Assembly: GCA_964017235.1 (NCBI GenBank)
Contig: OZ024933.1
Location: 60,184,255-60,248,254, forward strand
Source: Sabellastarte sp. h YS-2021
Taxonomy: Eukaryota; Annelida; Polychaeta; Sabellida; Sabellidae
DNA length: 64,000 nucleotides
Direction of reading: 5' to 3'
In this document: piece by piece, positions 3,605 through 64,000 of the stretch
Layout of the letters: the number at the start of each line of letters is the position of its first letter
Numbering within the stretch: position 1 is the stretch's first letter
Notes under the pieces: model-generated
The model's input: the letters and a program-made list of their open reading frames with translations, nothing else
What the model was told of the DNA's origin: nothing
Database searches by the model: none
Position numbers and translations under genes: made by a program

Positions 3605-4387
3605 TGCAAGATCTAAGGTCAACTCCAGGTCACATCATGACACTGCACACCTATAACCCCCCACCAATGTCCCTAAAAAATATCAACTACCTACACCTTA
3701 TGGTTTCTGAAATAAAGCCCAGACAAGACATTATAGGTCAAAGTCACTACGGAAAGGTCAAGGGTCAAATCAAGTTCACACCATGACATTTTACATCTAC
3801 ACACCCTAGCCAATGTCCCTACCAAGTATCAACTTCCTACACCTTACAGTTGCCGAGATATAGCCCGGACAAGATTTTATAGGCCAAGGTCACTACGGCA
3901 ACGTAAAATGAAAGTCACGCCATGACTTTGCACACCTACACTGCATAACCAATATCCCTTCCAAGTATCAACTTCCTACACCTTACAGTTGCCGAGATAT
4001 AGCCCCGACAAGATATTTTAGGTCAAGGTCATTACGGCAAGGTCAAAGGTCAAATCAAGGCCACACCATGACTTTGCACACCTACACCCCCTAACCAATG
4101 TCCCAACCAAATATCAACTTCCTACACCATATGGTTTCTAAGATATAGCCCGGACAAGATTTTCAAACTCAAGGTCACTATGGCAAGGTCAAAGGTCAAA
4201 TCAAGGTCACACCATGACATTGCACACCTACACCCCCTAACCAATGTCCCTACCAAATATTAACTTCCTACACCTTACGGTTTCTGAGATACAGGCCCGG
4301 ACAAACTTTTTCCCGCCACCTGCCGATCCGGACACCATGGGTGAAAAGAATACCCCGACAGCCCTTAAAGGCTTTGGGGTAAAAACC
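3605..4387 (+). repeat. Element with ~140-bp internal tandem repeats, copy 2
   Basis: About five units with anchor phrases near 3740, 3880, 4020 and 4168, a spacing of roughly 140-148 bp. Several units contain AGGTCAAAGGTCA, the direct-repeat-1 arrangement of nuclear-receptor half-sites. The array ends in the same terminal hairpin module as copy 1 (4335-4387, from 'acaccatgggtgaaaag' to 'ggctttggggta'). Shared array plus shared end means this is a repeated element, not local satellite expansion alone. Confidence 0.75.
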
Positions 4388-49734: not shown

Positions 49735-50339
49735 CTCATTATTTCTAACAAGAGGCATTCCCTAGTGGATCATTGGGATGACCGGTTGGTGGATTTGGTG
49801 GAATTCAGATTTCCTTTGGACTTTGATAGATCATCGAATCTTATATCTACTGAAGAAAATCATAAGTCAGCTAAGGATTATGAAGAGCATGTCGAGCATT
49901 ATTTGCAGGAGGAAGTATAGTATGGGATCATATTGGGCCATTTAAAGGTAAACCTATTGATCTGCATGTGAGCCGCTTTATGACTAGAGATAAACCTGAC
50001 TCTCAATTGTGTTGCACTATAGTTGGTCTTAGTTGGCCTTGTGGTGCTTCTATTAATCCTGGGGTACAGAAATATATATGTCTTAAACGTAAGTTTGCTA
50101 TGACCTATCCCTTGGTAGATCACATTGTTAACAGACTGTTTCAGTTGAGATATGGTTCCCTTATCTATAAGATCCCCCTTTAGACTACTCAAAGTAGATC
50201 CTGGGGATATTGATCTCTTGGGCTTAAAATTGGGTGATTATTACATTGATCAATCAGTCCCATTTGGATTCAGACATGGATCTTTTTCATCCAAAAAGTG
50301 ACGGATAACATTTGATTTATTATGAATAAGAATAATTTT
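49735..50339 (+). pseudogene. DIRS reverse transcriptase, N-terminal part
   Basis: A frame reading 'VDHWDDRLVDLVEFRFPLDF', then 'GPFKGKPIDLHVSRFMTRDK', 'LSWPCGASINPGV', 'FAMTYPLVDHIVNRLF', 'GSLIYKIPL' and 'YYIDQSVPFGFRHGSF' matches RT motifs of DIRS elements: SRF-x-TR-x-K-P, DLSWP-x-GAS-x-N, LTYP-x-VD-x-I, and PFG-x-RHGS. There are stops at the 'EEV*YG' position near 49918 and after 'YKIPL', plus a frameshift in 'RHGS..FF' near 50285. A TGA stands where an Arg codon (CGA) would fit, the change expected from CpG decay. The domain is cut by the LINE at 50340. Confidence 0.8.
50322..50339 (+). repeat. Target-site duplication, left copy (18 bp)
   Basis: ATGAATAAGAATAATTTT, identical to 52952-52969. 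The pair brackets the LINE exactly: right of this copy begins LINE sequence, left of the other ends its A tail. The ATG of the long LINE ORF lies in this duplicated host sequence, not in the LINE. Confidence 0.95.
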
Positions 50340-52763
50340 TTAAATAAAATTAACATTCCATCTATTTCAGAGGACAGTAAGTTTTCTTGTGACCTTCCCA
50401 TTTCTTTGGAAGAAGTAAAGACAGCAGTCCAAAGTATGGCCAATAACAAATCTCCTGGCCCGGATGGCATTCCTACTGAGTTTTACAAAACCTTCTGGCC
50501 TGACATTGGCGAGTCAGTTTATAGAAGTTTTACACTTGCTTACGAGCTAGGTAAATTATGTGGTAGTCAAAAACAGGGTGTAATCACCCTTATAATCACC
50601 CCACTTTCTATCTTGAACACGGACTACAAAATTATTGCAAAAGTATTAAGTACCAGGCTAAAATCTGTTTTAAAGGAAATTATAAACCCAGATCAGGTAG
50701 GCTACATGAAAGAGAGACTTTGTGGGGAGAATACTAGACTTATTTCAGATGTGATAGAATATTGTACAATTAAAAATCTTCCAAGCATAATCTTATTGGC
50801 GGACTTCGAAAAAGCTTTCGATTCAGTAAAATGGTCTTTTTTGACACAGATCTTGGGCTTTTATGGCTTTGGACAAAACTTTAGAAAGTGGATCTCTATT
50901 TTGTATAAAGACTCTGAGAGTTGTGTGACAAACAATGGGTATTTGTCTTCATTCTTTAAACTGTCAAAAGGCATCAGACAAGGTTGCCCAATAAGCGCAC
51001 TGCTATTTTTGTTAATAGCTGAAATTGTAGCCATTGTTTTAAGAAGCTCCGAAAGGATACATGGCATAAATGTCAATGGGAAAAATATAAAATTCTGTCA
51101 ATTAGCTGATGATTTAACATTGTTTTTATCCAATACCCCTTCTGTCTTAAGTGCAATAGAAATTTTTGAAGAATTCTACAGATATGCTGGCTTAAAGTTA
51201 AATAAATCAAAAACTATTGCTTTTCTTTTAAAAACTGATCAGGAAAAGGTCTATCAAGATGACAACATTGGTATTCAATGGACATCAAAACCATTCAAAA
51301 CTTTAGGTGCATGGTTTTCCCCCGACATTGGTGAGTCCTCGCAGCTAAATATACAAGGTAAAATGATAACAATTAAAAAAATTTTAAATTCCTGGTCTGC
51401 TAGATGCCTTACCTTAAAAGGTAAGATTACTGTTATAAAGTCTCTGGTAATCCCACATATTCTGCAGCTTGCTTCTATTGTAACTTTTAGCCACAATCTG
51501 ATATCGGATATAGATAAAATACTGTTTGAATTCATTTGGAAAAAAAAACACCTAGTTTCAAAAAATACTTTACAGCTGTCTTACGACCTAGGAGGTTTAA
51601 AAATGGTATCTATCAACCACATTGTAGAAACAGCAAAAATCATGTGGGTTAAAAGGTTTTTCAGTGAAATAAATGCAAGTTGGAAAATCTTGGCATCAGA
51701 GCTGATGGGACTTGGAAAACATGTCTTGTTGAAAAAACAGTCTTTCAATAGTATCAAAAATAATGTGAAGACTATCTTCTACTATGATCTATTACGTATT
51801 TGGTTTCAATTTCTGATGAAAAATTTAAAAAATGTAGATAACGTGCTTCATGAGCCAATTTTTAATAATCCCCATTTCTTGGTGGGAAATCATCCATTAT
51901 CATCTCAGAATGTGAAAAATCCAGTGTTAAAGTGTTTCACTGTCCAGGACATTTGGGACAGTGATCATGATACTTTCAGATCTAGAAATTATATTGAAAA
52001 TTTTTATAACATTAGTTTGCCATATATGTTATACAATCAGGTTGTTAGATCAGTGTCATCTGTAATGAAGTTGATTAACAAATGTGGTAACAACATTGCC
52101 CTGGAAAGATGCTGTAATATTCCTGATAAGTGTCTGTCTAACATAAGCCAAATAAAAAGTTCAGAGGTTTATTCATATTTCTTAGCACTTGAGTATAAGA
52201 CACCAAAGAGTCAGGAAAAATGGATTGAAAACTACCCATTTCTTGAAAGTTTGGACTGGAAACCAGTGTATTTACTTCCAAATTTAATCCTAAATGATGC
52301 TTACCTGATCACCTTTCAATATAAAATACTACATAGAGTTTTTGCCTGCAATTATAACCTCTTTAAGTGGAATATTAAAAATTCACCTCTCTGTGACATC
52401 TGTCAAAAAATAGACAATCTTGAACATTATTTCTACTATTGCATAGACACAAATGTATTCTGGGTTCAAGTAAAGAGCTGGCTGAACCAGTTGTTATCTA
52501 TTGAATTGAGCTTGACTGTCTTGGAGATATTTTTCGGAGTCTTAAAGTTGGACCCAAAGGACTGGTATACAGTTAACTTTGTTATACTAATAGGGAAAAA
52601 ATTTATATCAAAGTGCAAAAAAAATAACAAAGAATTATTTTTTAACAATTTTCTGGAGTACCTAAATTGGATGTTAAGTTTAGAAGAGGGGGTCTACATC
52701 AGGCAGGGAAAATCAACAGCATTCTCTGCAAGATATAGCCTCTTGCAAGCACATTTTTTCTAA
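50340..52763 (+). CDS. LINE ORF2 C-terminal part: reverse transcriptase (open, 5'-truncated)
   Basis: About 807 codons without a stop. In order: 'ANNKSPGPDGIPTEFYKTFW' (RT entry motif, ~residue 40), 'LLADFEKAFDSV' (first catalytic Asp, ~residue 160), 'KGIRQGCPISALLF' (~residue 220), 'QLADDLTLFL' (catalytic LADD, ~residue 262), 'GLKLNKSKT', a long thumb/connection region, and a C-terminal zinc motif CDIC...EHYFYYC near residue 690. Its usual job is to nick-prime and copy LINE RNA. An in-frame deletion of about 15-18 residues removes the segment between 'GVITLI' and 'PLSILNTDYK' (near 50595) that normally holds a basic loop and NWR. With no endonuclease and no native start, this copy is not an autonomous gene. 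It lies in host DIRS sequence, with TSD residues MNKNNF before it. Confidence 0.92.
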   Translation, partial: LNKINIPSISEDSKFSCDLPISLEEVKTAVQSMANNKSPGPDGIPTEFYKTFWPDIGESVYRSFTLAYELGKLCGSQKQGVITLIITPLSILNTDYKIIAKVLSTRLKSVLKEIINPDQVGYMKERLCGENTRLISDVIEYCTIKNLPSIILLADFEKAFDSVKWSFLTQILGFYGFGQNFRKWISILYKDSESCVTNNGYLSSFFKLSKGIRQGCPISALLFLLIAEIVAIVLRSSERIHGINVNGKNIKFCQLADDLTLFLSNTPSVLSAIEIFEEFYRYAGLKLNKSKTIAFLLKTDQEKVYQDDNIGIQWTSKPFKTLGAWFSPDIGESSQLNIQGKMITIKKILNSWSARCLTLKGKITVIKSLVIPHILQLASIVTFSHNLISDIDKILFEFIWKKKHLVSKNTLQLSYDLGGLKMVSINHIVETAKIMWVKRFFSEINASWKILASELMGLGKHVLLKKQSFNSIKNNVKTIFYYDLLRIWFQFLMKNLKNVDNVLHEPIFNNPHFLVGNHPLSSQNVKNPVLKCFTVQDIWDSDHDTFRSRNYIENFYNISLPYMLYNQVVRSVSSVMKLINKCGNNIALERCCNIPDKCLSNISQIKSSEVYSYFLALEYKTPKSQEKWIENYPFLESLDWKPVYLLPNLILNDAYLITFQYKILHRVFACNYNLFKWNIKNSPLCDICQKIDNLEHYFYYCIDTNVFWVQVKSWLNQLLSIELSLTVLEIFFGVLKLDPKDWYTVNFVILIGKKFISKCKKNNKELFFNNFLEYLNWMLSLEEGVYIRQGKSTAFSARYSLLQAHFF

Positions 52764-52951
52764 TTTTCTAATTTATCCATATAATGAGTGAATATGTATG
52801 TGTATCTTCCTGTACAATTTATTTTCTCTTTTTGTTCTAATTATTGTCTGCTCACCTTTTGTATCTTTTTGAATATCTTTTTAGATCTATTGTACATCTT
52901 GTGTCATGCTGTTTTTCTGGCAATAAAAACAAATAAAAAAAAAAAAAAAAA
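50340..52951 (+). mobile_element. 5'-truncated L1/Tx1-type LINE (LINE-1 copy), recent
   Basis: Insertion of 2.6 kb into the DIRS RT. It begins within ORF2 just upstream of the RT domain and ends with 'ctggcaataaaaac', a polyadenylation signal and an A tail (52934-52951). The 18-bp perfect target duplication and a reading frame open for nearly 800 codons mark it as the youngest event in the stack. ORF1 and the endonuclease are absent, as usual for target-primed reverse transcription that stops early. Confidence 0.95.
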
Positions 52952-52969
52952 ATGAATAAGAATAATTTT
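52952..52969 (+). repeat. Target-site duplication, right copy (18 bp)
   Basis: Identical to 50322-50339. The DIRS RT frame resumes through it without loss. Confidence 0.95.
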
Positions 52970-53101
52970 CCTGACTTATACAACTATGTAGATGATTTAT
53001 GGTATTGTGGCTTACCTTGTAATATTTATAAGTCATTTACATTCTTATCTGATTTACTTCATCAGCTAGGCCTGAAGATTAATCACAAGAAACTAGTCGA
53101 A

Positions 53102-53116
53102 CCCTCTACATCATTT
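53102..53116 (+). repeat. Left junction repeat of the 9.1-kb insert
   Basis: CCCTCTACATCATTT here and CCATCTATATCATTT at 62249-62263 differ at two of 15 bases, and both encode the same P-S-x-S-F point of the DIRS RT. It looks like an aged target-site duplication around the entire block 53117-62248. Confidence 0.7.
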
Positions 53117-54070
53117 AATAATAATAAAAAATTAGTCTTGAGTGCATAGGCTATAAAATATACCCATAGCTCATACATGTTGGTTGATGCCTAGTGGTGC
53201 TAGTGAGTGCAGTTTAAAATATCCAGGACAGCTCATGTCTTCTTCTCAATCCTGTCTCATTGGGTCCAAACTTGAGTGTGCACCATTCTAGCACAGAAAA
53301 TTCCATGTGGGAAACTCTGTGATTGTCTGAGGTGAAATGTCTAGAAACTGGTGTGCTTCTACTGGGTTTAGGTTTAAGGCCTAAATTTCTGTGTTTGTAT
53401 ATCCTTTTTCTAAACTCTCTGCTCATTTCAACAACATAGATCATATTGCATTTTGAACATGTCATTAAATAAATAAAGTTATTTATTTCACGTGTAATTC
53501 TCTTTGGGAGATTAATGCATCGGTAAGTAGTATTGGTGAAGGTGCATGTGGCTTCAGATAGTTTCTTAATTAGTGGGCAATAGGTGCATTTGCCCAATCT
53601 CATATACAATTTTTGGGTTTGCGACTAGTTTCTTTAGGGTAATTAATTTCAACATTAGTGATTAAATCTCTAAGGTTGGGTAATCATCTATACCCTAGGA
53701 TTGGTAGCTTAGGAAATAGGTTACCACAGTCTGTGCTATTAGAAATAATATTCCAATTGCGTAGGATTAGTTTTCTAATGTCAGGATTTCTAGGATTGTA
53801 GTTAGTTTCCATTACTGGAATTTCATTTGTATCTTTACTCTTGATTTCCAATAGGTCATCTTGTTTGTATTTGTGGCTCTGTTATAATGTTTCTTTAAGT
53901 TTTTAATAGGGTATCCTCTCTTAAGGTAGAATTCTGTAGAAGACTCACAGACATGAGTTGTCCTGGATCTTTAAACTGCACTCACTAGCACCACTAGGCA
54001 TCAACCAACATGTGTGAGCTATGGGTATATTTTATAGCCTATGCACTCAAGACTAATTTTTTATTATTAC
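53117..54070 (-). mobile_element. Penelope-like element (PLE) fragment with inverted end copies
   Basis: On the minus strand it contains the C-terminal coding part of a PLE. Both edges carry the same sequence in opposite orientation: 53119-53232 is repeated as a reverse complement at about 53949-54066 (about 115 bp, few mismatches), reaching from 'ttattattaaaaaattag'-like ends through 'ggttgatgcctagtggtgct' to the last codons of the ORF. A 5'-truncated PLE flanked by an inverted piece of its own end is a known outcome for this order, whose terminal repeats may be direct or inverted. Confidence 0.8.
53214..53900 (-). pseudogene. PLE RT C-terminus plus GIY-YIG endonuclease, broken
   Basis: The longest clean frame (53609-53214, 131 residues) holds 'CTYCPLIKKL', 'CINLPKRITREINNFIYLMT' and 'CSKCNMIYVVEMSREFRKRI', then 'VSRHFTSDNHRVSHMEFSVL'. 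That is the zinc-binding CxxC and the GIY-YIG nuclease linked to Penelope reverse transcriptases, which cuts the target. The usual Gly of the 'YVGET' stretch reads V here (YVVEM), so the active site is damaged. Upstream frames (about 53890-53610) give 'YNPRNPDIRKLILRNW', 'RLPNLRDLIT' and similar PLE-type linker motifs, interrupted by stops and shifts. RT core motifs are not in the window. Confidence 0.8.
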
Positions 54071-54324
54071 CTGGCATGCTGGCAATCAAGACATCAAGAC
54101 ATGCTTTCATCTGTGTGAAAAGTTTTTACATTTTTGTGCTGGATATAACACCTTAAAATATGAATTGAATGTATATAAGGATGTATTTTTGTTTATAGAA
54201 CAGGATGGTGTAAGCTTTTGGAAGAAAATATATGTAAAATTTGAGCATAGCAAGAAAAGTTTTAAAGATTCCTTGGATTTAATATGAAGTGGCAATAGTA
54301 TTAAACACTATTCATTACACATGT

Positions 54325-54495
54325 AACTTGGTATGATAATTTATTTATCAATTAAGTTTTGTGTGTGGGAATTAAAATACCAAGCTAGACATTTGTTGTA
54401 TTCACGTCATTTGGCATACAAAGGCTCTTTAAATATAACCTGGTGTGGCAATTTATTTAACATTTAAGTTTGTGTGTGGGAATTAAAACTGGTAG
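54325..54495 (+). repeat. Duplicated leader segment in the LINE (~112-bp period)
   Basis: 'aacttggtatgataatttat' (54325) and 'aacctggtgtggcaatttat' (54437) each continue 'ttaagttt(t)gtgtgtggga' and 'attaaaa'. Promoter-type tandem units are common in LINE 5' leaders. Confidence 0.7.
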
Positions 54496-54697: not shown

Positions 54698-55978
54698 ATG
54701 GCCTATAAGAGGAATCGCAGTTCAGATTCTGAGTCAGATTTTTATTGCAAAAAAGTTAACCTTCAAACAACTTCAGAAAAAATAATAGAATTTGCTGAAA
54801 GGGAAAATATGTTGGAACAATCAGAGTCCAATGTACTTAGAGAAGAAGCTATCAATACTGTCAAAAATAGTGCTCCGGAGTGGTTTGGTGGTGTCTTTGA
54901 ATTTTTGTTGAAAGACTTGCAGTATCTGAGAAGTCAATCAACAGGATTACAAGCTTGTAATAAAAAGTGTGAAAAAATGCAGAACAGATAGAAAGACTGG
55001 AAAGAAGACTGACAGAGCTTGAATCTACAAATCTGAAATTGAAAGATCAAATAGAAAATTGGAAGATTACTCAAGAAGAAACAACTTGATAATCAAGGGA
55101 GTTCCTGAAACAGGACCAAATGAAAAGACAAAAGATATAGTTGCTGACTTCCTACAGAACAACCTCCTAATTGATGATAGTGTTGGGATTACAATTAGTG
55201 ACACTCACAGACTGGGTAAACCCCCTCATCTCATCTCTAAGCCAACAAAAGCACCAAGGGACATAATTGTGCACTTTCAAAAGTGGAATGGAGAGAGCAC
55301 TGGTCTGGAATAACCGATCAAAACTTAAGAACTCTAAGTTTATTCTGCCGGAGGATTTTTCACCTGCAACACAAGACAGAGTAAAGAAACTTCTGCCTAT
55401 CTACAAAGCAGCAAGATGAAATCCAGATGTGACCAGATGTCAACTAAACCGGGATGTACTTGTCATCAATGGCAAGAAGTTTACTGTGGATTCCATTGAC
55501 TCACTGCCTTATGGATTAAAGGATGTAAACCCATCAGAGTACCATTTTCAAAATGGGAGAGGAGTTGCCTTCTTTGGTAAATCCAGCTTTATGGGTAACT
55601 TTCATGAAAGTCCTTTTACTGAGAATGGGGTTACCTACAAAACAGTTGAGCATTACTATCAATGCAAAAAAGCTGGATATTTCAACTCCAAATCAGGTGA
55701 AGGCACTATCATACAGGATAAATGATTACGACGCAGAACTTTGGCAACCAGTTGCAAGACACACCATGTATAAGGCCTGCTTGCTGAAGTTTCAACAAAA
55801 TCCAATCCTAGGACTCAAACTGAAGAACACAAGTGGCATCATTGTGGAGGCTAATCCAAATGATAAACTGTTCTCTTGTGGACTATCTTTGCACCATCCA
55901 CATATACAACATCAGGAAAAATGGCCTGGAAAGAATCTTCTTGGAGAGATCCTGTGTCAAGTTCGTGACTCTTTATAA
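54698..55978 (+). pseudogene. LINE ORF1: coiled coil + L1-type RNA-binding domain + NADAR domain
   Basis: ATG at 54698 opens a lead region (MAYKRNRSSDSES...). A frame shift near 54990 precedes a coiled coil ('QIERLERRLTELES', 'LKLKDQIE'). Then 'EDYSRRNNLIIKGVPETGPN', 'VADFLQNNLLIDD', 'SDTHRLGKP' and 'PRDIIVHF' form the RRM-like domain of L1-type ORF1 proteins, which bind LINE RNA (55056-55290). After another shift: 'ILPEDFSPATQDRVKKLLPI', one TGA, and 'VLVINGKKFTVDSIDSLPYG' (CTD). It ends in a NADAR domain: 'VAFFGKSSFMGNFHESPF', 'KTVEHYYQCKKAGYF', a 1-bp shift near 55685, 'YKACLLKFQQNPILG', 'IIVEANPNDKLFSCGLSL', 'WPGKNLLGEILCQVRDSL'. NADAR/YbiA proteins act on ADP-ribose-type N-glycosidic bonds. 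Canonical WG of the 'D-x-x-WG-x-GL' motif reads FS here. At least three frameshifts and one stop: dead copy. Confidence 0.85.
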
Positions 55979-57866
55979 GACTTATCACCATAACTATTGT
56001 AAGCCAAATTAAATTGATTTATTATTAGCTTTCTATTAGTGATAACATTGTTACAAGTTCATTAGTTTAAAATATTTTTTTTGTTTCATTTTAAGGAAAT
56101 ATACATACTAATGTAACAGTTTTATAGATACTGTCTTGGCATGACAAACAATCGATATTGTTTTATAGATACTGTCTTGGTATGACATACAGTTGATATT
56201 GATGTTCCTCAAATTAATAATATTAATGTTGATAATATTAACTAATAAGATAATTTAGACCCTTATCAGTGCTTTATACTTTAACTGCAGTAAAACATTA
56301 AAGTTATCTTATGAACCTGCTAGAGACATTTTGAAAATGCTAATTGGGAATTGAGTGAGAAAGGATCTTAAAAAAAAGGTAGGGGGAAAGGAAAAAAAAA
56401 ATTTAAAATGGGAATTTTGTCAACTAAAAGGTGTATCAAATCTTTGTTGTGTAATATACAACACAGATTCTGGTAACTTTTATTGCATTAATGTTACGAC
56501 TTAACAGTATTTGCTATTAGTTAGCAATGATACTTTCTCTATGAAGCCTTTTTACATTTTATTGTTTTTATTATAAAATGGAAAAAGACAACTATGCTGT
56601 TATTAAAAAACAGATGTCATGAAATAATTACAATTCCTCTTCATTCTTTAAAAGTTTCTATAAAATATGGCATGAATTTCCTATACCTGTTTGTTTTAAT
56701 ATAGAAGTAAATTAATTAAGTAATGACAATAATTGAAATAACTGTAGTAATTGCAGTAATAATATTGTAATAGTAAAAGTTTGAACCATACATAATCCAT
56801 GTAACTATTTTTTAAACTGGTTCTAACTATTTGACTGTTGATGACAATACCTCTGATACGTTGTTTTAATATAGAAATAAATTGTATTAATTAAGTAATG
56901 ACAATTATTGAAACAACTGTAGTAATTGCGGTAGCTATATATTGTAATAGTAACTTTAGAATTTTGAACCATACATAATCCGTGTAACTATTTTTTTTAA
57001 AACAGGTTGTAACTTTTTGATTGTTTGGTGACAATAATTCTGATATGACTTATGTAAATGATATGACATATGTAAATGATATGACATATAAAACATCTAA
57101 TGGTTAGTGCATGGTAGGTTCTGTGACTAATAAACTCCAAACCTATTACCGAAGATAAAAATCAATGTGTTCTATGAGAGGCTATACTACTACATGGCAG
57201 TTTTGTGATGGACAAAATTAACATCAAGTATTTTTATATGGTGAGAAAATAAGCACTGAAAAGCTTTGTGTACTTTACCAAAAGTTTTAAACTTCTAATT
57301 TTTGAACATGCTAAAGAATCGATCTCATGAGAGTACTTATTATGTTAAGGTACGAAAAGAGAAATTGTTATGTTATCAAACTGTAGGCAATTTATATGTT
57401 ATAGAATTATAAATATAGTAAATAAAAATTTAAAGTAACATGGGAAACTTCATAACCAAATTTGTAACATTTTTCTAAATTTTACAGCTATGTTATTAAG
57501 ATAGTATATAATCTCCCATTCTCTTTAGAAATATCATAGAATTTTGCAAGCGATTGAGAATTTTACCACCTTAAAAGGCCTTTTTTATGTGTTTTATATC
57601 CAGTGACTGCCATTTTTTTTAAAAAAATGCTCTGTCTTCATGTTTTGTTCATTTGTGCATATTTTTTGCACAATCTACTTTGACACCATCAGCTGATCTA
57701 GTAAACCTCTTGGTATGTCAGTCACACATTAATAGTTTTTCATCCAAAATTGCTATTTTTTCTGCCTCTTTATTTATGTGTATGTACTTTATCATTGATG
57801 TCACTCCATATATTAAAACTTATTGAAAAACTCAAATTATCTTGAGATTTTTAAAATTATCATTTT
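55979..57866 (+). other. Gap between LINE ORF1 and ORF2, with a ~170-bp tandem duplication
   Basis: No coding signature in 1.9 kb. 'ttgttttaatatagaa' at 56691 and 56861 each begins a unit with 'attaagtaatgacaat', 'actgtagtaattgc', 'gaaccatacataatcc' and 'gtaactattttt' (to about 57035). A smaller duplication 'tagatactgtcttggYatga' is at 56124 and 56165. The gap is long for this LINE type; either it is a true feature or another insertion has decayed there. Confidence 0.6.
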
Positions 57867-59051
57867 ATGTCGATGATAGTTAGTGATCAATTGAAAATCT
57901 TGTCTGCAAACTGTCAGGGCTTGAGGGATCACACCAAAAGACTTGATGTCTTAAACTATTTTCTTCAGCTAAACCCGAATATAATTTGTCTGCCAGACAC
58001 CCATCTGACTGTTGATGACGAGAATCTTTTAAAATTGACATCTAATTGTAATTGCTTTATAAGTGGCTCAAGGACTAATGCACGTGGTGCTGCAATTTTA
58101 TTAAAAGAAAATTTTGCTCATAAAGTCATAAAATTTGTTCCAGATAAAGGTGGAAATTATATTTAGGTTGATATGGAAATAGAAAATATAAGTTTGAGAA
58201 TAATCAATATTTATGCACTAAATACTGACACTCCAAGTTTTTTTCAAACTATAGACAACCTCATTTCAGAAAATACATCAGATCATTTGATATTATGTGG
58301 TGATTTCAGTTTAATATTTGACTCAAATATGGACTGTTACAACTATGTCAGCATCAATAATCCAAGGTCAAGGTCTGTAATTTTGGAATAAATGCAAATT
58401 CATGAAGTAATAGATACTTATCGATACTTTCATCCAAACACAAAATGATACACATGGACACGAAGAAACCCAGTAAGGCAGGCACGCTTGGATCATTTTT
58501 TAGTGTCGCACTGCTTTATTGACCTAGTATGTAAATGTAAGATTATTCCAGGGTACAGGTCAGATCACTCTGTACATGAAGTAAATCTTAAGATAAACAA
58601 TTTCACACAAAGGAAAGGCTTATGGAAATTAAACTGTGATCTCCTGAAAAATCAGGATTTTATTAATTTAGTAAATGACACAATCCAGAGAACACGTCTG
58701 GAATTTATAGCACCAGTTTATGATCCTACTTTCCTTGAAACCACCTCTGATTTTGATGTAACTTTTACCACTGATGTTGATCTTGTTCTTGAAATGATTT
58801 TGCTTAAAGTAAGAGAAGCAAGTATTAAATATTCTTCATTATTGAAACGTGCAAGAAATGATCAGGAAAAGTCCTTGGTTAATCAAATTGAAGAACTTGA
58901 AAAAGATGAAAATAATCTGAGAATTGGAGATGAACTTGAAAAACTTAGACAACAATTAGAATCCTTAAGGGAGATTAAATTGAAAGGTCAAATGGTTCAC
59001 TCAAGGGCAAAGTGGTTACATTCAGGTGAAAAACCATCTCATTTTTTTTAA
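57867..59051 (+). pseudogene. LINE ORF2, apurinic-like endonuclease and linker
   Basis: 'LKILSANCQGLRDHTKRLDV' starts an exonuclease-endonuclease-phosphatase fold. 'NPNIICLPDTHLT', 'GAAILLKENF', 'LILCGDFS', 'WTRRNPVRQARLDHFLVS' and 'GYRSDHSVH' follow in order. This nuclease nicks the target DNA to prime reverse transcription. Two catalytic positions are changed: the usual QETHL reads PDTHL (Glu to Asp), and GDFN reads GDFS. In-frame stops lie at 58164-58166 (TAG) and 58389-58391 (TAA), and another near 58446. The linker after 58600 is coiled-coil-like ('LVNQIEELEKDENNLRIGDE') and ends at a frame break at 59051 ('GEKPSHFF'). Confidence 0.85.
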
Positions 59052-59053
59052 CC

Positions 59054-60361
59054 TTGAACGCAAAAATTTGCCTAGAGAATGGTGAAACCATAACAAATCA
59101 AACTGATATATTAAATCAGGTTAAAGATTATTATGGCAATTTATTCAAAAGTCAAGATAGCATACTTGAAGATGTCAAATTTGATGAAATCCTTAATCAA
59201 GATTTTGTTAAAAAACTGACAGGAAATCAAGCTCAACAATTAGAAGGACCTCTTGTTTTAAGTGAATTGAGTAATACTTTAAAGAATATGAAAAACAACA
59301 AAACCCCTGGTATCGATGGATTCCCTGCTGAATTTTTTAAAGTCTTTTGGGGACAGTTAAAGTTTATGATTTTAAGAGTGGCAAATTTTTATTTTCACAA
59401 AGGTAAATTCTCGGTTACCATGAGACAGTCTATCATAAATTGTATCCCAAAAGGTGATAAATCAAGACAATTCCTAAAAAATTGGCGTCCTATATTTCTA
59501 CTCTCTGTTCTGGATAAGCTTATTTCTTCAGCTATTGCTAATAGGTTGAAACAAGTTTTAGACACATTAATATCTAAAACATCTAAATATCTAAAAGGAC
59601 ATAATATAGGAGAATTGATAAGATTAATCTATGACTTGATGAGTTTTACTGAAAAACAAAAGATAAAAGGGTTATTGATGCTGATAGACTTTGTAAAAGC
59701 TTTTGATTCTGTATCTTGGAAGTTTTTATACAATGTGCTTGATTTTTTTGGCTTTGGTAAAGATTTTATTCATTGGATTAGAATTTTTAATACTGACTTT
59801 CATGCATCAGTAATACAAGCTGGCATCAAATCAGAATTTTTTAAAATAGAAAGAGGTTGCAAACAGGGTGACCCCATAGCCTCATATTTATTTCTCTTAT
59901 GTGGTTAGATTTTATTTTATCTAATTTGTCAAAATGTTGAAGTAATGGGTATTCAAGTTGGTCAAGAAGAAATCAAGCTCTCACAGTTTGCTGAGGACAC
60001 AACCATCATTCTTGATGGTTCTTATAGATCCCTTGAAGCAGCTTTGAATGTTATTGAGATATTTGGGAATATATCCGGTCTAAAGATGAATACCACAAAA
60101 ACCAAAGTAATTTGGATTGGGGACAAAAGACATAGTACTGACAAACTACCCATGTCATATCGTTTAGAATGGGGAACAACTACTTTCAATTTATTAGGGA
60201 TACTGTTCTCGGTGAATTTTGATGATATACCAGTTTTAAATTTTCCGCCACTTTTGGATAAAACAAGGAAGATTATAAATAGTTGGAAAAGAAGATCGCT
60301 CACCCCCTTGGGAAAAATAACAATTATAAAAACATTTATATTGTCAAACTTGTTAAACTAA
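59054..60361 (+). pseudogene. LINE ORF2, reverse transcriptase domain
   Basis: 'MKNNKTPGIDGFPAEFFKVF' (entry motif), 'RQSIINCIPKGDKS', 'LKNWRPIFLLSVLDKLISSA', 'LLMLIDFVKAFDSVSWKFLY' (first catalytic Asp intact), 'ERGCKQGDPIASYLFLL', then a TAG at 59906-59908. The frame resumes with 'LSQFAEDTTIILDG' and 'ISGLKMNTTKTKVIW'. The catalytic box FADD reads FAED, replacing one of the metal-binding aspartates, so the enzyme is dead even apart from the stops. Family placement with the L1/Tx1 group rests on the FADDTT-like box and the ORF1 type. Confidence 0.9.
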
Positions 60362-61665
60362 CTATTTATTTTGTGCTATTCCATCACCAGGCGACTCATA
60401 TACAAAAAATTTAAATACCTTACTTTTTAATTATCTTTGGGACACTAAGCCTGATAAAGTTAAGCGTAGCTGTGCAACACAAGACTATAGAAATTTTGGA
60501 TTGAGAATGGTTGATTTAAAGAGCCATATAAATGCAATAAAGCTTTCGTGGATAAGTAAACTAATTAAAAATAACCATAACCAATTTTCTACAATACTAG
60601 AAAATTTACTTTTACCAATTTCCAAGATCACAATACTTGGGTCAGACTGGTTAAAGGGTTTTAACAAAAAATATATAATCCATTCTGGAAAGAAGTATTC
60701 AGTGTTTTGATTATTTATTTGGAAAATCAGGCTATAACCAATACAAAAGAACTCCTTCTATCTCCCTTGTGGTTTAATCCAAAAATTTCAAAAAATAAGT
60801 TATTTCTTCCTAAATGGTTTAGCAATGGCATTACATTGGTCGGTGACATCCTCAATAACCAAGGAGAAATTCTAAGCCAAGTACAGCTTAAACAAAAATT
60901 TAAATTTCAAATAAACTTTCTTGAATATCATCATGTAAAGCTCAATATTAAAGATTTTCTAAAATGCTATGAAACTGTGACAGGAAGCTTTGATCAACCT
61001 CCCCAACCCAGTGTTCCTATGCACATTGCTTTTTTCATTAATAATAAAAATGGAACCAAAGGTATCTATCAAAATATTTCCGGTAAATTAAAACCGCTTC
61101 ATATGGAGTTTCAAACCAAATGGCACAATGAACTTGATGTAAACCTTGAAAATGCCTTGTGGCAATTTTTTTTAAACTGTGTTTTAAAGCTTCAAATGAT
61201 TCATATCATAAATGGTTCCAATACCAAATATTGCATCGTACCTTAGCAACCCAGAAACTCCTAAGCAAAATGAGCATGTCAAACTCACCTACTGGCTTAA
61301 GTTGTCAATCAAATATTGAATCGTTATGTCACCTATTTTACTTTTGCCCTAATTCAAAACAGCTATGGACCCAACTTGAAAACAAAATTAAGATTAGTAC
61401 TCAATTTACCGTAAATTTCAATCCCTGTGATGTCTTACTGGGTTACACTTTAGATAATAACAACTCTATTGCTATAAATGTCATATTGTTGGTAACTAAA
61501 GCATATATATATAAAACTTCAAGAATACTGAAAAAGTATTACATTAAAGATGTTATACAGCTTGCAGAAAGAACATATAATGAACAACATTTAGCTGCAA
61601 AATTAGATTATAAGGAACATAAATTTGAAAGGGAGTGGCATCAAATTAAACTTCTCTTTACTTAA
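60362..61665 (+). pseudogene. LINE ORF2, C-terminal region with zinc motif
   Basis: Two or three overlapping frames (60501-60710, 60707-61246, 61159-61665) carry the connection region: 'LRMVDLKSHINAIKLSWISK', 'FQYQILHRTLATQKLLSKMS', and a cysteine/histidine segment 'CQSNIESLCHLFYFCPNSKQ' similar to the CDIC...EHYFYYC motif in the 50340 LINE. Frameshifts near 60705 and 61170. Stop at 61663-61665. Confidence 0.8.
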
Positions 61666-62010
61666 TAAATAAAACTCCATTAAAATGTTTGGTAAATAAA
61701 AACCTAAAAGTCTCTGACTCTCTGTATAATACTTTAATTTTATGCTTCTTGATTTATGCAAATTTACATGACTGATGGTTGTACAGCACTTTTCCCAGTA
61801 CTTTTTGTGTTGTTTTTGTTTTTTTTTATTAAAAATAGGTGTGTAACAATTTCTCCATGGTATTAAATATACTTTTTTTTGTTTTATTGTAACATTATTA
61901 AAAATATTGTACACTGGGGATCTTGCCTGCCAGAGATCATCAGTTCTTTCTGTAAATGGCAGTTTTTGTTTGTTTCACATCAATAAAAAAATATGAAAAA
62001 AAAAATTTTA

Positions 62011-62135
62011 TTATTATTTTCTGTATATACCCACTCAAAAACACATGAGGTGGTAACACACTAAACTATAATCAATATAACCATATTATCATGCATTGTT
62101 CCCATTTTAACCATGATCATTTATCAAAAGGACAC
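62011..62135 (+). other. Unassigned segment before the ribozyme
   Basis: Lies between the 3' A-rich end of the LINE and the hammerhead motif. AT-rich, non-coding. Probably the same element as the ribozyme (a Penelope-type terminal repeat or a retrozyme-like unit), but no sequence match to the PLE at 53117-54070 was found. Confidence 0.4.
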
Positions 62136-62263: not shown

Positions 62264-63010
62264 TGTATGCTTAGGTATTCTTATCAATACTGAAGATAGA
62301 ACTATGTCCATACTCCCTGATAAGTTGCAAGAAATACTACAGTCTTGAATGGCATAATAAAAGGTTTTGTTCAAAACGACAACTTCAGTTTGCTGGGATA
62401 ACTTTTTGTATTTTTGTAAGTGTGTAAAGCCAGCTATTGTGCTTCTAAATTGTATGCTGGCTTTGTAGAGAGACAATGTTAATAATGAAATCATATTCTT
62501 ATCTCAGAAATTTTCAAAGACCTTAACTGGTTCTCTTTATTCTTAAAATAGTTTAATGGAGTTGTATTTTATGGTGTCAGACCATTAACAGCTGATCTTT
62601 GTCTCGATGCTTGTTCAACAGGCTTGGAGTGTCTATGGTCGACAATGCTATGAGCTGCCCTTACCTAAAGATTTCAATAATTATACAATAGTCCACCCTG
62701 AGATGTTAAATATCCTACTGGCTCTCAAGATATGGGCTTATCAATGTACTGATTGGAAGGTTCAAATTCAATGTGATAATATGGCTGTGGTAGATGTTCT
62801 TGCTTCTGGCAAGACTAAGGACAAAGTACTAGCTACATGTGCCTGAAATATATGGTTATTATCCTCCCTGTATAATATCACCTTACAGGTAGATCATATA
62901 CCTGGTAGAGATAACATGGTGGCAGATTTGCTATCTAGGTTTAAGTTCGACCAAGAGTCTTATCTCAAACTTAGTCAACATATACCTTATCCTCATTGGA
63001 TATCCTCACT
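62249..63010 (+). pseudogene. DIRS RT thumb and RNase H
   Basis: 'FVCLGILINTEDRTMSILPD' begins where the RT was cut at 53116. After frame changes come 'CKCVKPAI', 'LLNCMLAL' and 'IFKDLNWFSLFLK', then 'GVYGRQCYELPLPKDFNN' and 'IVHPEMLNILLALKIWAYQC', 'VQIQCDNMAVVDVLASGKTK', and 'LQVDHIPGRDNMVADLLSRF'. These are the RNase H acidic positions (E in 'HPEML', D in 'QCDNMAV', D in 'DNMVADLLSR'). The RNase H removes RNA from the cDNA hybrid. Stops after 'LQEILQS' (62346) and after 'ATCA' (62844), and shifts around 62610, make it inactive. Confidence 0.85.
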
Positions 63011-63029
63011 GATTTGACATGTTTAAATT

Positions 63030-64000
63030 ATGGCATATAGTTGTAGGCACTCTTCCAGCTCAGCTCAGCTGACCACCAGGGCGTTTGCACATTTGTTTGA
63101 AGTCTTCAGGCCAGGTACTCAGAGAGATGTTACTCTAGCAGGTTTTATGACTTTCTTGATTTCCTGATGGCGGCTGGGCTGTCACTGTAACGGATACATA
63201 TTTCAGTACTTTTAACTTTCATGGAACATGTGCATACTCACAACTCAAAAGTAGCTCCAATCAGTAATTACATGGCCGCTCTTACAGCCTTTTTATACTG
63301 TACGATTTGCCTACTGCTGTCTTTAAAAATGACAAGATTCAATTATTTATTAAAGCACTCAAGTTGAACAGGCCTTTGTTCAACTTGAATGCCCCTATTT
63401 TAAAAGAGCAAACTCTTGTTCAGATTGTAGAGGTTTATAATCACCTAGAGCATCCTTACGTCTTTACCACTGTATATTTGCTGGCCTTTTTTTCTCATTT
63501 ATGAGATTGTCAAATATTCTCTCTCATACCAGAGCTCAGCATGATCACACTAAACATGTAGCTAGATGGGATGTTTTTTTTCACCTTCAGAAGCCATTGT
63601 TTTGTTGAAATGGTCCAAGACCAATCAATTTAGGGATAGGGTGCTACTAGCCCCCCTTTTCCCTAGCTCACCTCTATGTCCAGTCACAGCACTTGGAGCA
63701 ATGATTGCTCATATCATTGGATCTGATAATGATCCACTTTTTGCTACTTATGTTCATGATTCATTATTGCCATTAACAGATACCATGGTTAGAAAGCATC
63801 TTAAGAGGGTGCTTGCACTCATCGGCTTGCAAAATGATGGGTACACATTTCACACATTCAGAAGGTTTAGTTCCTCCTGGGGCTCCGATGGAAGCTACTA
63901 AATCTCAGGAGACATGGGTATCAGACACTGTCTGACGTTATATACATTCACACACCCCTGCTTCCTCGGCTCTCCTCTCAGCTTTTAGACAACAACTACT
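63030..64000 (+). pseudogene. DIRS tyrosine recombinase, broken and cut by the window end
   Basis: N-terminal SAM-like part: 'LTTRAFAHLFEVFRPGTQRD' near 63070. Then 'VAPISNYMAALTAFLY', 'LPTAVFKNDKIQLFIKALKL' and 'IVEVYNHLEHPYVFTTVYLL', and the catalytic half 'VLLKWSKTNQFRDRVLLAPL', 'LFATYVHDSLLPLTDTMVRK', 'GYTFHTFRRFSSSWGSD' and 'TWVSDTV..RYIHSHTPASS'. HxFRR carries the His and Arg of the tyrosine-recombinase active site, and the last block is the conserved end of DIRS recombinases. The enzyme would join circular cDNA to the target without a duplication. A Trp codon in 'VSDTVW' is TGA (63944 region); stops also occur near 63190, 63503 and 63899. Confidence 0.8.

Follow-up and report, generated by a model that had tools for sequence, protein, structure and literature searches.

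A NADAR domain of the YbiA family has been described in ORF1 of several Tx1 LINE families of Crassostrea gigas, drawn from Repbase, and in the Pol protein of Gypsy elements of Ectocarpus (PMC12477816, Genome Biol 2025). According to the available portion of that report, the role of the domain in retrotransposition is unclear, and the processing of RNA intermediates is suggested for the C. gigas and Ectocarpus elements alike. Within the literature searched, which lies outside most subscription journals, this is the only report found of a NADAR domain in a LINE ORF1. A paper on bivalve transposons lists Tx1 among the LINEs of these animals, and the word NADAR is absent from the part of its text that was accessible (PMC10294476). 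The ORF1-NADAR fusion is not new in print, and the element presented here fits the description of the C. gigas Tx1 elements as far as that description is available.

The locus lies in a 64,000-nucleotide stretch of DNA, hereafter the window, and is a degenerate copy of an L1-superfamily LINE, probably of the Tx1 clade. Its features, in window coordinates, are as follows.

54698..54991, plus strand: N-terminal part of ORF1, beginning at the ATG at 54698; no Pfam match at E up to 1
54979..55055, plus strand: ORF1 coiled coil, AEQIERLERRLTELESTNLKLKDQIE, in the next frame; recognized by eye and from sub-threshold Pfam matches, mostly to coiled-coil families
55047..55290, plus strand: L1-type RRM, RRNNLIIKGVPE block; LINE-1 ORF1p is the nearest PDB sequence
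55285..55548, plus strand: L1-type C-terminal domain (CTD), VLVINGKKFTVDSID block; no Pfam match on its own; in-frame stop at 55417
55567..55978, plus strand: NADAR domain of the YbiA type, ending with the ORF1 stop codon; lacks about 13 residues at a frame change near 55695
55979..57866, plus strand: AT-rich spacer (26% GC) with tandem duplications of 41 bp and about 185 bp
57867..61665, plus strand: ORF2, with APE-type endonuclease, L1-superfamily reverse transcriptase (RT) and zf-RVT; broken by stops and frame changes
61666..62006, plus strand: 3′ UTR and short A-rich tail, delimited by eye
54059..54069 (left) and 62006-62016 (right), plus strand: candidate target-site duplication of 11 bp, TTTTATTATTA; weak

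ORF1 and its NADAR domain

ORF1 spans positions 54698-55978 of the plus strand and specifies, in order, a coiled coil, an L1-type RRM, an L1-type CTD and a NADAR domain. The blocks named in the earlier note are all found, in the order and on the strand that it gave; the start of ORF1, which it had placed at 55059, is in fact the ATG at 54698, about 360 bases earlier, such that the span it claimed runs from the RRM to the end. The frames of ORF1 (coordinate modulo 3) follow the series 2-1-0-1-2, which amounts to four frame changes, and with an in-frame TGA at 55417 besides, this copy of ORF1 is dead. The earlier note had also raised the question of whether the fusion is in-frame. In the frame at 55420-55725, which is open and without a stop, the last part of the CTD runs on into the first third of the NADAR domain, and so the CTD-NADAR fusion is in-frame in the DNA as it stands, independently of any joining of frames.

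The NADAR domain is recognized both within single frames and across the frame change. The Pfam NADAR model (PF08719, cut-off 35.1) scores 79.6 bits (E 4.2e-22) in the single frame 55529-55978 and 25.1 bits (E 2.4e-5, below the cut-off by itself) in the frame 55420-55725, and it reaches 92 bits (E 6.4e-26) in P0001, the NADAR-bearing read-through translation in which these two frames are joined across the frame change. TIGR02464, the NCBIfam model for YbiA, gives 78.8 bits for the read-through domain, above its cut-off of 73.7, and 60.5 bits, under that cut-off, for the single-frame part alone. The E-values of the NADAR matches rule out a chance match to low-complexity sequence.

Structure prediction leads to the same family. 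An AlphaFold2 model of the CTD and NADAR domains has a mean pLDDT of 82.4, and at E≤0.001 a Foldseek search of the PDB returns only two entries, both of them NADARs: 8BAU (E 5e-8, TM-score normalized by target 0.67) and 2B3W, which is YbiA (E 1e-5, TM-score 0.58). This fold match is not independent of the sequence match, since the alignment from which the model was made consists of NADARs. In BFVD there are 38 matches at E≤0.001, including named NADARs of phages, giant viruses and animal RNA viruses. The presence of a YbiA-like NADAR at the C-terminus of an L1-type ORF1, as first proposed from the letters of the sequence, is borne out by profiles, fold and domain order, and the identification can be made with high confidence.

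The L1-type assignment of the upstream domains is moderate by score and is strengthened by their order and context. Pfam Transposase_22 yields 13.4 bits (E 0.098), below its cut-off of 22.4, and 13.3 bits on a longer read-through. When PDB sequences are searched with the RRM piece at E up to 5, only two matches emerge, both of them LINE-1 ORF1p (E 0.08); the coiled coil, RRM and CTD, read through, match the same two at E 6e-4, in an alignment that starts at the end of the coil and reaches into the CTD. The CTD piece alone gives no LINE match in the PDB, where its best hit, at E 0.006, is a designed repeat protein and no individual stretch passes, and the RRM folded alone has a mean pLDDT of 62.8 and no Foldseek match at E≤0.001. 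The L1-type RNA-binding domain proposed in the earlier note therefore stands by virtue of the PDB matches to LINE-1 ORF1p and not by virtue of the Pfam model, which stays under its cut-off.

Conserved residues can be compared by mapping the domain onto the reference structure 8BAU, the P. nicotianae NADAR, in which the chain number equals that of the paper plus two. The positions equivalent to E43, K50, Y84, W89, E125 and D130, the roles of which are taken from the available text of PMC11543638, are all kept. The catalytic Glu and Lys (E43 and K50) correspond to E77 and K84 of P0001, and the E125 position is E143 of P0001, i.e. the Glu by which the YbiA subfamily is defined (PMC11543638, PMC11125620), rather than Asp or His. 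NADARs of the DarT1-associated (BC4488) type have a catalytic Asp at this E125 position; in the LINE domain the Glu is present. Conservation of the E125 and D130 positions among the relatives retrieved is partly a matter of choice, as the search patterns selected for both.

Other positions have changed. Those equivalent to K75, G78 and R79, which in 8BAU contact the pyrophosphate or the adenine (in the case of G78 via its backbone), are occupied by E, S and Y, and they adjoin the approximately 13 NADAR residues that are missing exactly at the frame change near 55695. A single deletion would explain both the frame change and the missing residues; next to such a gap, decay and real divergence of the three positions look alike, and the changes may be decay. 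The R93 position is A and varies in relatives as well. The W133 position is F, encoded by TTC, whereas an alignment-based count finds W there in 160 of 160 relatives fetched from viral and genome contigs, the search patterns having required W or F at this position in the viral scan and left it free in the genome scan. Because TTC is two base substitutions away from TGG, the change to F looks older than the death of the copy. Taken together, the guanine-ADP-ribose hydrolase contacts K75, R79 and W133 of 8BAU, which do not define the superfamily, are replaced by E, Y and F. More broadly, 36 alignment columns show at least 90% conservation across 41 viral NADARs (drawn from the 80 fetched, the best 80 of 442); of these columns, the LINE domain keeps 25, differs at nine and has gaps at two.

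The sequence relatives of the LINE NADAR are phage and bacterial NADARs, in collections that included no eukaryotic one. The best identity is about 38% to phage NADARs (among the matches listed, 40 of 636 records) and 34% to plasmid NADARs (among the matches listed, 20 of 64). In viral contigs, among the best 80 of 442 matches, it is 38% across the domain and 43% for a partial match, and the best 80 of at least 554 matches in genome contigs reach up to 37%. With best identities of only about 34-43% among the matches listed, a recent transfer from bacteria or phages is unsupported. Mollusks have NADARs (PMC11125620). No second copy of the element was found in the viral_contigs collection with two NADAR queries, the first partly out of frame, and an RT query, or in genome_contigs with the P0001 query; these scans reach close relatives only, in collections other than animal genomes. 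A second NADAR is absent from the window at E 0.01. That the capture is peculiar to this locus is disfavored, because the fusion is already in print for the Tx1 LINEs of C. gigas.

Possible roles of the domain

The NADARs that have been tested, including YbiA-type proteins and a eukaryotic one, hydrolyze guanine-linked ADP-ribose in DNA (PMC11543638, PMC11125620). One YbiA from a myxobacterium shields cells against YarT, the transferase with which it is paired, while YbiA and phage NADARs that act as guanine-ADP-ribose hydrolases in vitro did not protect cells from DarT1 (PMC11125620), and so activity in vitro need not mean protection. An activity that ADP-ribosylates DNA at guanine N2 occurs in six edible clams, from one of which the enzyme CARP-1 was purified (PMC11209040); according to PMC11543638, removal by NADARs of the marks made by CARP-1 and pierisin is an assumption rather than a demonstrated fact. 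NADARs also reside in the polyproteins of animal RNA viruses, including bivalve picornaviruses, where they are proposed to remove host ADP-ribosylation (PMC9503650). LINE ORF1 proteins, for their part, self-associate and are thought to package RNA (PMC3905857).

When NADAR chemistry, clam ADP-ribosylation and RNA packaging by ORF1p are put together, the reading that we favor is a glycohydrolase carried on the ribonucleoprotein. In live relatives of this copy, the coiled coil would multimerize ORF1p, the RRM and CTD would coat the element RNA, and the C-terminal NADAR domain would travel with the ribonucleoprotein to where target-primed reverse transcription takes place. Acting as a ribosyl N-glycosidase, the domain could strip the bases of the element RNA or single-stranded cDNA of ADP-ribose or a similar N-ribosyl adduct, and the intermediate would thereby be protected from nucleic-acid ADP-ribosylation by the host. 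A use of the domain to counter host ADP-ribosylation of the RNA or cDNA, or else to bind such marks, was also raised in the earlier note and is possible. Catalytic activity in live relatives is moderately probable. The protective role is put forward tentatively, and the whole chain from domain identity through protection by a tethered glycohydrolase is given roughly one chance in three (about 0.35). The changes at predicted ADP-ribose-contact positions, seen in one dead copy, count against a glycohydrolase role.

The strongest rival, although itself unlikely, is that the domain is a reader or a structural RNA-binding module, which would bind RNA ends that bear NAD, ADP-ribose or another modification and would help to package or process the transcript. 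The altered ADP-ribose-contact positions suit such a module, as does the suggestion of RNA-intermediate processing made for the C. gigas and Ectocarpus elements (PMC12477816). The nematode protein SNA-3, which has three NADAR domains, is an essential trans-splicing factor that is inactivated by mutation of key residues; these mutations, however, match the residues that YbiA needs for its N-glycosidase activity (PMC9303266), and for this reason SNA-3 is no clear case of a non-enzymatic NADAR. Moreover, the Glu/Lys/Glu positions of the LINE domain are all kept together with W108 and D148, which a pure binder would not need.

Alternatively, the domain could clear soluble ADP-ribose-type signals or toxic NAD derivatives, produced by host immunity, from the vicinity of the ribonucleoprotein, rather than act on nucleic-acid adducts. 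A soluble substrate has been proposed on comparative grounds for many phage NADARs (PMC9503650), and phage and bacterial proteins are the relatives recovered here from collections without eukaryotic sequences. Tethering in cis to an RNA-binding protein suggests instead a bound substrate, and the same authors consider macromolecules the likelier targets where the NADAR belongs to a eukaryotic RNA virus (PMC9503650). This alternative appears quite improbable.

A similarly low probability is assigned to the idea that the element took up its NADAR domain a single time and gains nothing from it, the domain having persisted as a hitch-hiking neutral passenger. The copy is indeed dead and has lost about 13 NADAR residues, and 11 of the 36 highly conserved columns differ or are missing. 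Retention of the other 25 at only 31-43% identity to distant relatives nonetheless points to long constraint before the copy died, and the occurrence of the domain in several C. gigas families, as reported (PMC12477816), speaks against a passenger as well.

If a glycohydrolase tethered to the ribonucleoprotein is the correct reading, a NADAR domain on the RNA-coating ORF1p would link retrotransposition to nucleic-acid ADP-ribosylation. The guanine-ADP-ribosylating activity of clams is without a settled purpose in the available text of PMC11209040, and NADARs are the family known to reverse the bond that it makes. A more specific proposal is that the ORF1p of an invertebrate LINE clade is an eraser of guanine ADP-ribosylation, which would strip N2-guanine marks of the CARP-1/pierisin type from cDNA or RNA. 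This is very improbable in so specific a form, and no link between a LINE ORF1 NADAR and CARP-1 or pierisin marks was found in the accessible portions of the literature examined. Were it true, the fusion would represent a retrotransposon counter-defense, and DNA ADP-ribosylation by CARP-1/pierisin-like animal enzymes would restrict mobile elements. Through the fusion such an arms race becomes testable: does guanine ADP-ribosylation hold mobile elements in check, and are there elements that erase it?

The element and its surroundings

Downstream of ORF1 lies an ORF2 with the APE endonuclease and L1-type RT that characterize the L1 superfamily. Its endonuclease matches Exo_endo_phos at E 1e-4 (22.6 bits, just below the cut-off of 24.5), its RT matches RVT_1 at E 1e-18 and the zf-RVT match has an E of 4e-8. 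The nearest RT in the PDB is that of LINE-1 ORF2p (E about 2e-25, versus 2e-10 for R2). In the RT motif, FAED takes the place of the usual FADD.

The two ORFs are separated by 1.9 kb, which is unusually long for a LINE, and their GC contents differ (0.38 in ORF1 versus 0.31 in ORF2). The spacer may be a later insertion, or it may indicate that ORF1 and ORF2 belong to different elements. The ORF1-NADAR unit would then be an ORF1-only (HAL1-like) element or a lone gene that by chance resides upstream of another LINE, a possibility favored by the length of the gap with its tandem duplications and by the difference in GC. On the other hand, ORF1 and ORF2 share the same strand, occur in LINE order, are both of L1 type and are both decayed; the possible 11-bp duplication flanks the unit as a whole, albeit as a weak signal that about 4% of control stretches equal or surpass, in some cases because the control includes the site; and a NADAR domain in ORF1 has its precedent in C. 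gigas Tx1. Separate origins are thus rather doubtful, and ORF1 and ORF2 are likely parts of one element.

Non-coding tandem duplications are found around ORF1 at 56119-56201 (41 bp), 56691-57045 (about 170-185 bp) and 54321-54488 (spacing of about 112 bp), and these could be promoter-like monomers of the LINE.

Several other mobile-element remains occupy the window. A second L1-type LINE RT at 50316-52763 has an intact frame of 815 codons (RVT_1 E 2e-30; zf-RVT weak and below cut-off), with no endonuclease in the upstream ORFs listed and a long poly(A) tail near 52935-52952. Its RT is only 31-34% identical to that of the NADAR-bearing LINE, which places it in a different family, and a search of viral_contigs with this RT as query gave no second copies of the NADAR-bearing element. 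An inverted repeat of 122 bp at 53119-54069 (arms 53119-53240 and 53949-54069, 97% identical) encloses an ORF on the minus strand whose match to GIY-YIG is weak (E 0.002, below cut-off); this unit is perhaps a fragment of a Penelope-like element. Fragments at 62589-63901 look like the RNase H (RT_RNaseH E 0.0035, below cut-off) and, by eye and without a Pfam match, the tyrosine recombinase of a DIRS-like element, and an RT-like YVDD stretch near 52955-53115 may be the other half of this element, split by nested insertions. Near the start of the window, a satellite-like tandem unit of about 146 bp (75-83% identity) forms blocks at 145-687 and 3606-4384. Scans of the window for tRNAs and Rfam families returned nothing.

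Comparison with known systems

The best PDB match to the part of the fusion ahead of the NADAR domain is human LINE-1 ORF1p (2YKO and 2YKP), which has the same order of coiled coil, RRM and CTD. In LINE-1 ORF1p no domain is known to follow the CTD, the position at which the present protein bears its NADAR domain.

That domain has a common fold with the P. nicotianae NADAR (8BAU) and E. coli YbiA (2B3W), and it shares catalytic-type residues and the YbiA-type glutamate with 8BAU, the only one of the two on which residues were mapped. Both of these NADARs are stand-alone proteins, whereas the LINE domain is fused to ORF1p and is altered at ADP-ribose-contact positions, with F at the W133 position. 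The NADARs of animal RNA-virus polyproteins, such as that of yellow head virus, were found by fold and likewise reside within the own protein of an RNA-replicating element; they differ in belonging to RNA viruses and are 18-25% identical to the LINE domain in the structural alignments of the named entries.

An enzymatic domain in a LINE ORF1p is unusual, and a 2013 paper describes the esterase-type ORF1ps as unique among ORF1ps in having an enzymatic function (PMC3905857). ZfL2-1 ORF1p, which represents that type, similarly has an added enzyme domain after a coiled coil, but the enzyme is an SGNH esterase and there is no RRM (PMC3905857). The Gypsy elements of Ectocarpus are likewise retrotransposons with a YbiA-family NADAR; in contrast to the present element they are LTR elements with the domain at the N-terminus of Pol, for which blastp in that study found almost only bacterial proteins (PMC12477816). 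Apart from the broken state of the present copy and the RRM/CTD layout, which is described here for this copy, the system to which it can be likened by description is the ORF1 of C. gigas Tx1 elements, also a LINE ORF1 that carries a YbiA-family NADAR domain, there in several families (PMC12477816).
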